Positions 22,401 to 28,247 of a stretch of DNA of 64,000 nucleotides are shown here, one piece after another. Every line of letters starts with the position of its first letter. Within the stretch, counting starts at the first letter, position 1. A model generated the notes under the pieces. The model saw nothing but the letters and a program-made list of their open reading frames with translations. It did no database searches and was not told the origin of the DNA. Source of the stretch: an uncultured SAR86 cluster bacterium (GTDB taxonomy: Bacteria > Pseudomonadota > Gammaproteobacteria > Magnimaribacterales > D2472). The DNA is taken from positions 124,001-188,000 of the forward strand of contig CACOWI010000001.1 in NCBI GenBank assembly GCA_902630885.1. The letters run 5' to 3'. The position numbers were made by a program, and so were the translations under genes.

Positions 22401-22574
22401 ATGTGCAAATTTCAAATTTCAAATCTGACTTTAGCATTTTATATTTTTATATTTGGAGCATTTATTGAATTGATGCATCTTTTTCATCCCTATAGATATT
22501 TTGAGTATTTTGACTTACTTGCAATCCTCTTTGGAGTTACAATTGCGTTTTTAATTAATAAGTTAAAAAGTTGA
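22401..22574 (+). CDS. Candidate 57-aa small membrane protein, VanZ-like C-terminal portion
   Basis: MCKFQISNLTLAFYIFIFGAFIELMHLFHPYRYFEYFDLLAILFGVTIAFLINKLKS*; GAFIELMHLFHPYRYFEYFDLLA resembles the VanZ motif; below the ORF-track length threshold. Confidence 0.5.
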   Translation: MCKFQISNLTLAFYIFIFGAFIELMHLFHPYRYFEYFDLLAILFGVTIAFLINKLKS

Positions 22575-24626: not shown

Positions 24627-24653
24627 TTTGGGGCATTTAGCCCCATTTTTTTT
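24627..24653 (+). terminator. Rho-independent terminator after groEL
   Basis: TGGGGC-ATTTA-GCCCCA hairpin followed by a T run. Confidence 0.85.
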
Positions 24654-24696
24654 GTATAATTAATTTAATAATAACTTTCTAATTGGAGCTATTTAA

Positions 24697-24873
24697 ATGA
24701 AAGCGTTATATTTTTTACCAATTTTTTCAATAAATTTATTTGCTCATGTTAACAACTCAATACATTCTCATTTTATTGAGAATTTAATTTATTTAATTGT
24801 GTTATTTGCATACATTTGTCTTGGTATTTCATTACTTTTACTTATGAGAGCTATTTATAGGAGGTTTGTATGA
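24697..24873 (+). CDS. 58-aa membrane microprotein coupled to sodN
   Basis: MKALYFLPIFSINLFAHVNNSIHSHFIENLIYLIVLFAYICLGISLLLLMRAIYRRFV*; ATG after GGAG-like SD; its TGA overlaps the sodN ATG (ATGA). Confidence 0.65.
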   Translation: MKALYFLPIFSINLFAHVNNSIHSHFIENLIYLIVLFAYICLGISLLLLMRAIYRRFV

Positions 24874-25334
24874 AAATTAGAGATGTAAAAGCACATTGCG
24901 ACATACCTTGTGCAGTTTATGATCCTGGTGTTGCACAATATGCAGCCTTAAGTGTGGTAAGGTTTTTAGATCTAATTGGCGAGATGCCAGAAAATATCGA
25001 TTCAAAAAAAGATCTTGCTCATTTAACCAGACTTGTTCAACAAAAAGAAGAACATGCAATAGAAGTCAAAGATGCTGTAAGAACAATTTGGGGTGATTAT
25101 TTTAAGGAGCCTCAAATGGAAAAGTTTCCTGAAATACACGAACTGTGTCATTCAATAATGATGACTGCTTCAAAATGTAAACAGGACATTGATCGTCAGA
25201 ATGGCTTAGATTTAGTTGAGAAAGTAAATAGATTTGCTGAAATATTTTGGGCAACAAAAGATGTCAACACAGAAACTAAAAAATCACTAAATCCTCCTCA
25301 TATGGATATCATTGTGCCTGTCTTAAGTGATTAG
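24870..25334 (+). CDS. sodN: Nickel-dependent superoxide dismutase
   Basis: Nickel hook HCDIPCAVYDP preceded by an 8-aa leader. Confidence 0.95.
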   Translation: MKIRDVKAHCDIPCAVYDPGVAQYAALSVVRFLDLIGEMPENIDSKKDLAHLTRLVQQKEEHAIEVKDAVRTIWGDYFKEPQMEKFPEIHELCHSIMMTASKCKQDIDRQNGLDLVEKVNRFAEIFWATKDVNTETKKSLNPPHMDIIVPVLSD

Positions 25335-25599
25335 CATTCATAGAGTTAGGGGTTCAAGTATGACCCCTAATTTTAATGATAAAGACTTTGTCTTAAGCCT
25401 TAATTGTTTTTATTCAATTAATAGAGGAGACGTGGTTTTGGTTAAAATACCAAACATTGGGATTGTTATTAAGAGAGTAGGTTGTATAGAAAAAAATAAA
25501 ATAAAGCTCCATGGCGACAATCATGAATATAAATCAAATATTTATGATAACTTTTTTGATCTGAACTTAGTTCAAGGAAAGGTATTTTTTAAATTTTAA
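25327..25599 (+). CDS. sodX: Nickel-type SOD maturation protease (S26-like)
   Basis: RGSSMTPNF Ser motif and IKRVGC Lys motif; GTG start overlapping sodN. Confidence 0.88.
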   Translation: MISIHRVRGSSMTPNFNDKDFVLSLNCFYSINRGDVVLVKIPNIGIVIKRVGCIEKNKIKLHGDNHEYKSNIYDNFFDLNLVQGKVFFKF

Positions 25600-27512: not shown

Positions 27513-28247
27513 ATGGTAATAATAAGATTAGCTAGAAGTGGGGCCAAGAAAAATCCTTACTATTTTATCACTGTTGCTGACGAAAGACGTCCTAGAGACG
27601 GTGCTTTTATTGAAAGATTAGGTTTTTTTAATCCTTCAGCAAATGGTAAAGAAGAAAGGCTAAGAATTGATCTAGAAAAAATAGATGAGTGGGTATCAAA
27701 GGGTGCGCAGTTAAGTGAAAGAGTAAGCGCATTAATTAAAGAAGCCAAATTAACTCCTGAGGAATTTGCAGCTAAAGTTGAAGCTAAAAAAGCTAAAGCT
27801 GCTGCTAAAAAAGCTGCATTAGCAGAAAAACTAGCTAAGGAAGCAGAAGAAGCAGCTGCAGAAGAAGCACCTGCTGAAAAAGAAGCTCCTGCTCAAGAAG
27901 GACCTGCTGAAGATGCACCTGCCGAAGAAGAAGCACCTGCTGAAAAAGAAGCTCCTGCTCAAGAAGCACCTGCCGAAGAAGAAGCTCCTGCAGAGGAAGA
28001 AGCTCCTGCAGAGGAAGAAGCTCCTGCAGAGGAAGAAGTACCTGCAGAGGAAGAAGCCCCAGCAGAAGAAGCACCTGCAGAGGAAGAAGCCCCAGTAGAA
28101 GAAGCTCCTGCAGAGGAAGAAGCACCTGCAGAAGAAGAAGCCCCAGAAGAAGAAGCACCTGCAGAGGAAGAAGCCCCAGCAGAAGAAGCACCTGCAGAGG
28201 AAGAAGCACCTGCTGAAGAAGATTCTTCAGAAGATGAAAAAAAATAA
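27513..28247 (+). CDS. rpsP: 30S ribosomal protein S16 with long acidic Pro/Ala/Glu C-terminal tail
   Basis: S16 core [41 protein letters not shown] followed by ~160 aa extension of (P)AEEEA repeats. Confidence 0.95.
27843..28244 (+). repeat. Degenerate 15-18 bp coding tandem repeat (PAEEEA units) in rpsP
   Basis: Includes three perfect copies of GCTCCTGCAGAGGAAGAA around 27982-28038. Confidence 0.9.

Follow-up and report, generated by a model that had tools for sequence, protein, structure and literature searches.

Many marine bacteria defend themselves against superoxide with nickel superoxide dismutase (NiSOD), the product of sodN, which spares iron. The N-terminal His is a demonstrated nickel ligand in DUF4198 proteins (Kd 18 nM). 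DUF6702 proteins and anglerases, which also start with His, bind nickel. In all three, the N-terminal His has been established experimentally as a ligand of nickel or copper, and anglerases occur fused to HupE/UreJ_2 permeases (PMC12537917). Members of the CutF family (DUF2946) work as exported cis-acting copper sensors that gate the translation of the downstream gene, and CutF-like proteins with His only are neighbours of HupE/UreJ (PMC9973294). In cyanobacterial sodN loci, a nickel-supply gene (SodT/UreH) lies beside sodN-sodX (PMC4284471).

Here, we describe a 58-aa membrane microprotein encoded directly upstream of sodN in an uncultured SAR86 bacterium, and we read it as belonging to a widespread set of single-TM, 'mini-HupE-like' proteins coupled to nickel and cobalt enzyme operons. 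This bears on the supply of nickel to NiSOD in streamlined cells, SAR86 among them, that have to obtain it at sub-nanomolar levels.

The sod locus and its small upstream gene

The window, i.e., the whole stretch of 64,000 nucleotides that was analysed, carries the following features around sodN, all on the forward strand.

24629..24645 (+): intrinsic terminator of groEL, TGGGGC-ATTTA-GCCCCA followed by T8, which parts groEL from the sod module (terminator scan)
24655..24660 (+): putative promoter, a weak TATAAT -10-like hexamer just 3' of the groEL terminator, lacking a clear -35 and absent from the scan list
24685..24688 (+): GGAG Shine-Dalgarno of the microprotein gene, eight bases 5' of its ATG, retained in most SAR86 relatives
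24697..24873 (+): gene of the 58-aa microprotein (ORF reading, conservation, pN/pS)
24697..24744 (+): predicted signal peptide, residues 1-16, cleavage LFA/H (hydropathy, AlphaFold helix over residues 3-15, column A16 at least 90% Ala)
24745..24780 (+): predicted periplasmic stretch HVNNSIHSHFIE, with H17, H23 and H25 invariant in the alignment
24781..24846 (+): predicted transmembrane helix, residues 29-50 (hydropathy, AlphaFold)
24847..24870 (+): basic C-terminal tail RAIYRRFV (translated sequence)
24859..24864 (+): AGGAGG Shine-Dalgarno of sodN, within the Arg-Arg codons of the microprotein (sequence)
24870..25334 (+): sodN, nickel superoxide dismutase with N-terminus MKIRDVKA/HCDIPCAVY (Pfam Sod_Ni 2.6e-43; TIGR02753 above cut-off)
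25327..25599 (+): sodX, S24/S26-type maturation protease with a GTG start at 25327 (S24/S26-like)

The microprotein gene runs from the ATG at 24697 to the TGA at 24873 and encodes MKALYFLPIFSINLFAHVNNSIHSHFIENLIYLIVLFAYICLGISLLLLMRAIYRRFV. The first-pass annotation had noted this unlisted ORF, its GGAG and its ATGA overlap into sodN, and the sequence bears out all three: the end of the gene overlaps the sodN start (ATG at 24870) by 4 nt. The overlap of sodN with sodX that it had also reported measures 8 nt, up to the sodX GTG. SodX itself scores 31.1 with TIGR02754, below the model cut-off of 63.25. Given the clear groEL terminator just upstream, the microprotein gene, sodN and sodX look like a transcription unit of their own. 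The idea of a three-gene sod module stands for this locus but not for the family, whose members also adjoin nickel genes other than sod.

After signal cleavage, the predicted mature peptide would be HVNNSIHSHFIEN. The A/H junction at the predicted cleavage site is invariant or nearly so in the family alignments. The AlphaFold model has helices at residues 3-15 and 21-57 (mean pLDDT 82), in agreement with hydropathy and with the signal and TM segments proposed earlier, which are predictions. The Arg-Arg codons of the tail are also the AGGAGG of sodN, so that conservation of a basic tail here is partly a nucleotide constraint. SAR86 microproteins gave only chance-level matches to Pfam and NCBIfam. 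Searching PDB sequences with A3, a profile built from sodN-linked members, gave only single-TM receptor helices (E > 0.07), which we regard as meaningless.

Two other features of the window deserve mention. A 57-aa ORF 5' of groES (22401-22574, +), whose VanZ-like match stays below threshold (24.4 bits, cut-off 30.1), is possibly another uncalled small membrane protein. The ribosomal protein S16 gene (27513-28247, +; Pfam S16 over residues 8-68) carries a long C-terminal Ala/Pro/Glu repeat tail of ~125 residues, with tandem units of 18, 33 and 51 bp at 27845-28222 (~22 copies of the 18-bp unit), which is unusual in a streamlined genome.

Conservation of the microprotein at sodN loci

Within the genus, we searched all 34 genomes with the peptide and, independently, for members of the SodN family. 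Both searches picked the same 18 genomes; the ORF lies directly upstream of sodN in 18/18 genomes with sodN and is found in 0/16 of those lacking it. At the order level, it is present at 45 of 48 sodN loci (the exceptions are L033, L090 and L093), and an order-wide profile search made with no reference to sodN gave convincing matches (E <= 1e-3) only beside this gene. The eight closest disjoint pairs have a pN of 0.113 and a pS of 0.239 (ratio 0.47, Fisher p = 8e-8): the microprotein is under purifying selection, though it evolves faster than sodN. The co-occurrence in the genus, the counts in the order and the pN/pS ratio confirm that the ORF is real and not a chance reading. Loss or frameshift of the ORF in relatives, which would have spoken against the first-pass annotation, was looked for and did not refute it. 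Among 29 family sequences, only M1, H17, H23 and H25 are invariant, with A16 nearly so. SAR86 has, at nearly every sodN locus, a protein with no Pfam or NCBIfam match.

Beyond SAR86, we scanned the best 80 sodN loci in GTDB contigs. A small ORF with signal peptide, His residues and TM segment lies immediately upstream of sodN at 60 of them, in hosts that include Marinomonas, Pseudoalteromonas, Enterovibrio, Grimontia, Psychromonas, Ferrimonas, Colwellia, Methylophaga and Porticoccaceae. The typical relative reads A/HPGHDHxHWSSxxIH-TM-basic and, in these other Gammaproteobacteria, is separated from sodN by a gap of ~50-155 nt; some family members lack the HxH or even His1 (L182). The ORF is missing at 20 of the 80 loci. 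Most of the alphaproteobacterial loci are without it (8 of the 9 so labelled), and so are those where sodN bears its own signal peptide (L077-L079). Together with the three SAR86 exceptions, the 20 loci imply that the microprotein is not indispensable. No microprotein was seen in the retrieved stretches of two viral sodN contigs (L193, L194), and a single query of plasmids gave no match.

In an out-of-sample test, a SAR86-only profile was scored against all sodN loci, translated in six frames (7,591 ORFs). Leaving aside the training set, each of its 45 best matches is encoded on the sodN strand in the slot just before that gene, across Gammaproteobacteria; the first match elsewhere is at rank 46 (E 0.77). 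This test stands in place of a comparison between the SAR86 profile A1 and A3, which is not independent since A3 includes SAR86 rows.

The three loci L077, L078 and L079 represent a second type of NiSOD, with its own Sec signal peptide (A/HCQ.PCGIYDDHARV), no microprotein and no sodX noticed nearby. The Cellvibrionales locus L153 has a close match, in both microprotein and SodN N-terminus, in the sodN locus L163 of a MAG that is labelled Flavobacteriaceae TMED48; the latter is probably a binning error.

Similar proteins beside other nickel and cobalt genes

The family is not sod-specific. When A3, which holds sodN-linked members only, was run on 369 gammaproteobacterial genomes, it retrieved six sodN-linked matches and seven other short single-TM ORFs, and all seven adjoin nickel genes: ureD (L230, L234, L236), larC (L237), the large subunit of [NiFe]-hydrogenase (L229, L243) and hypE (L232). 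Most of these neighbours were confirmed by Pfam, the hydrogenase at L243 by similarity to that at L229. The remaining matches are HupE/UreJ proper (L238, L239), longer N-His proteins, fragments and chance matches. We then extended the profile, in part with the finds of this first search, and searched more widely, which added ORFs next to ureG (L256, L261, L264, L276) and hypA (L269), ORFs in the gap between ureA and ureB (L268, L270, L274, L281), and further sodN-linked members. The ureA-ureB ORFs, from alphaproteobacterial urease operons, encode His-first membrane proteins of 53-58 aa, A/HSGAHLHPHEAN-TM, that pass no Pfam cut-off. Many of the ORFs overlap or abut their nickel or cobalt gene (-4 nt at ureB, cbiX and hydrogenase). 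There are exceptions: one other genus, of family f208, has a similar ORF, A/HSGHGHIEA.SIWHWLLEFDHIGW-TM, after tatC (L257-L260, L262), with six of its genomes placing such an ORF beside that gene, and at L278 the ORF adjoins a metallo-beta-lactamase-like gene.

We define the set as proteins of 50-100 aa with a predicted signal peptide, [A/S]H at its predicted cleavage site, further His residues and a single TM segment, encoded beside a nickel or cobalt enzyme gene; the window protein has all of these. The adjacency counts are those of the sampled genomes. Homology between the lineages is uncertain, the sequences being short and the argument resting on position, architecture and His conservation. 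In the literature, of which our coverage was partial, we found no description of a small sodN-linked or DUF6732 protein.

Where do these proteins resemble a known permease? The first transmembrane segment of HupE has a motif of the H-x(5)-D-H type, which is present in the HupE/UreJ proteins L238 and L239 and in part in L243 and L232. The hydrogenase-linked L243 alone among the relatives passes the HupE_UreJ cut-off (29.5 bits, cut-off 23), over its signal peptide and first TM segment only; the window protein has no match (PF04955/PF13795). In Novosphingobium, the slot upstream of a plasmid-borne sodN is filled by a complete HupE (E 8e-47). The match of L243 and this replacement indicate that the microproteins resemble, by position, the first segment of HupE. 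The HPxxGxDH motif of that segment is absent from the SAR86 alignment, comparing the profile of the SAR86 set by itself with two HupE sequences gave a negative result, and hydropathy and AlphaFold give the window protein a signal helix and one TM segment rather than six transmembrane helices. We therefore call it 'mini-HupE-like' and not a member of HupE.

The source genome (an assembly of 1.06 Mb, 79% complete), which the named relatives of its sodN place with SAR86, does encode a HupE/UreJ_2 permease (L250, G000:C3:50500-54500), whose signal peptide is followed by His in an anglerase-like way (SHEFNPAH). It is the only permease found there that is a candidate for the nickel entry route. Its gene is unlinked to sodN, with peptidyl-prolyl-isomerase-like, coaBC-like and panB-like neighbours, and the permease also occurs in genomes lacking sodN. 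No permease is linked to the microprotein in SAR86, no NicO transporter was found in the genus, and a HupE regular expression revealed no linked permease near the 80 sodN loci; L178 has a short HupE-like ORF near sodN, below cut-off.

Proposed nickel capture and its alternatives

The first-pass annotation had proposed that the microprotein aids nickel acquisition or localises SodN/SodX. The presence of these ORFs next to sodN, urease, [NiFe]-hydrogenase, hyp and larC genes in independent lineages strongly favours the former, and a role of some kind in nickel or cobalt trafficking is highly probable. As to mechanism, the microprotein may sit in the inner membrane and capture Ni2+ at its periplasmic face. 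Cleavage by signal peptidase after residue 16 would leave a mature N-terminus that begins with His; the amine and imidazole of His1, and then the HxH at the membrane surface, would hold the metal on a protein anchored by one TM helix. The bound Ni2+ could then be handed to a nickel permease, for which the HupE/UreJ_2 of the source genome is the candidate, and nickel uptake would coincide, in place and time, with the synthesis of SodN from the shared mRNA. Cleavage, topology, metal binding and hand-over are all things we infer, and we give this mechanism a probability of about 0.5.

The chief rival is a self-sufficient channel: the microprotein would oligomerise and its TM helices would form the nickel path, like a one-helix HupE/UreJ with no partner. 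The likeness of L243 and L232 to the first TM segment of HupE, including H....(D/E)H, and the full HupE that replaces the microprotein in Novosphingobium both favour it. The TM segment of SAR86 members has no conserved polar residue and the genome encodes a separate permease, which makes such a channel improbable, if still the best of the alternatives. Less probable again is a CutF-like sensor acting in cis, in which the nascent His peptide, while it is translated or exported, would gate translation of the downstream gene. An exported small ORF immediately upstream, with translational overlap, would suit it, as would the precedent of CutF (DUF2946) for copper and the His-only CutF-like neighbours of HupE/UreJ (PMC9973294). 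We disfavour it, as in other operons the ORF often follows the nickel gene (ureG, hypA, hypE, hydrogenase), there is no proline-rich arrest motif, and RNA structure over the sodN start is not unusual (z 0.15); no Rfam riboswitch scored above gathering either.

That the microprotein anchors or localises SodN/SodX, or their maturation, is very unlikely. The gene order and the His-first metal stretches of both SodN and the microprotein would be in keeping with it, but urease, hydrogenase and larC genes have neighbours of the same architecture in the absence of SodN, which leaves this part of the earlier proposal unsupported, and the His stretch is predicted on one side of the membrane while SodN and SodX, being leaderless, would be on the other. 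The least probable reading, a leader for translational coupling whose peptide is irrelevant, draws on the 4-nt overlap and the sodN AGGAGG in the last codons and is already disfavoured by the constraint at the protein level, the invariant His residues and the ~50-155 nt gaps before sodN elsewhere.

Returning to nickel capture, the recurrence of the architecture next to urease, hydrogenase, hyp and lar genes points to an element for nickel delivery in general. We lean slightly towards the broader view that a previously unnamed class of single-TM His-first proteins serves nickel entry as a component common to the NiSOD, urease, [NiFe]-hydrogenase and lar operons of Proteobacteria (with DUF6732 for cobalt chelatase), acting as minimal HupE-type channels or as periplasmic capture subunits, of which the SAR86 form would be the most reduced. 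The idea is testable, as the culturable Marinomonas, Pseudoalteromonas and Enterovibrio carry relatives.

Among described systems, HupE/UreJ (PF04955) shares with the microproteins the signal peptide, the His directly after it, the His-rich periplasmic segment and the hydrophobic helix, but is a six-TM permease, whereas the microprotein has one TM segment after predicted cleavage and no HP..G.DH. SodT/UreH also sits beside sodN-sodX but is a six-TM transporter with a cytoplasmic His loop, and is not homologous by present tests (PMC4284471). CutF/CruR-like sensors (DUF2946) are likewise small exported ORFs with metal motifs beside metal genes (PMC9973294); they have a CxxxC and a proline-rich C-terminus and act upstream in cis, whereas the microprotein has no CxxxC, no proline-rich C-terminal arrest sequence and no DUF2946 Pfam match. 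Anglerases and DUF4198/DUF6702 proteins have His as residue 1 after signal cleavage, as is predicted for the microprotein, and likewise a context of Ni/Co/Cu trafficking (PMC12537917). A putative role of the microprotein's His1 as metal ligand is consistent with the solved N-His nickel proteins (PMC12537917). The anglerase and DUF4198/DUF6702 proteins differ in having a folded extracytoplasmic domain of ~100 residues, whereas the microprotein has a 12-residue stretch on a TM helix and is modelled by AlphaFold as helix with no such domain. DUF6732 (PF20506), with SP-AH.GH...GHDHW-TM, shares layout and size with the microprotein. Its scores with several sodN-linked relatives are weak (25.0 bits at most, cut-off 27; no match for the window protein), and it differs in its acidic tail, cobaltochelatase neighbour and alphaproteobacterial hosts. 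In Rhodobacteraceae-like genomes (L195-L203), it is encoded directly upstream of CbiX, with a 4-nt overlap measured in L196, which suggests that DUF6732 is the cobalt counterpart of the nickel-linked microproteins.
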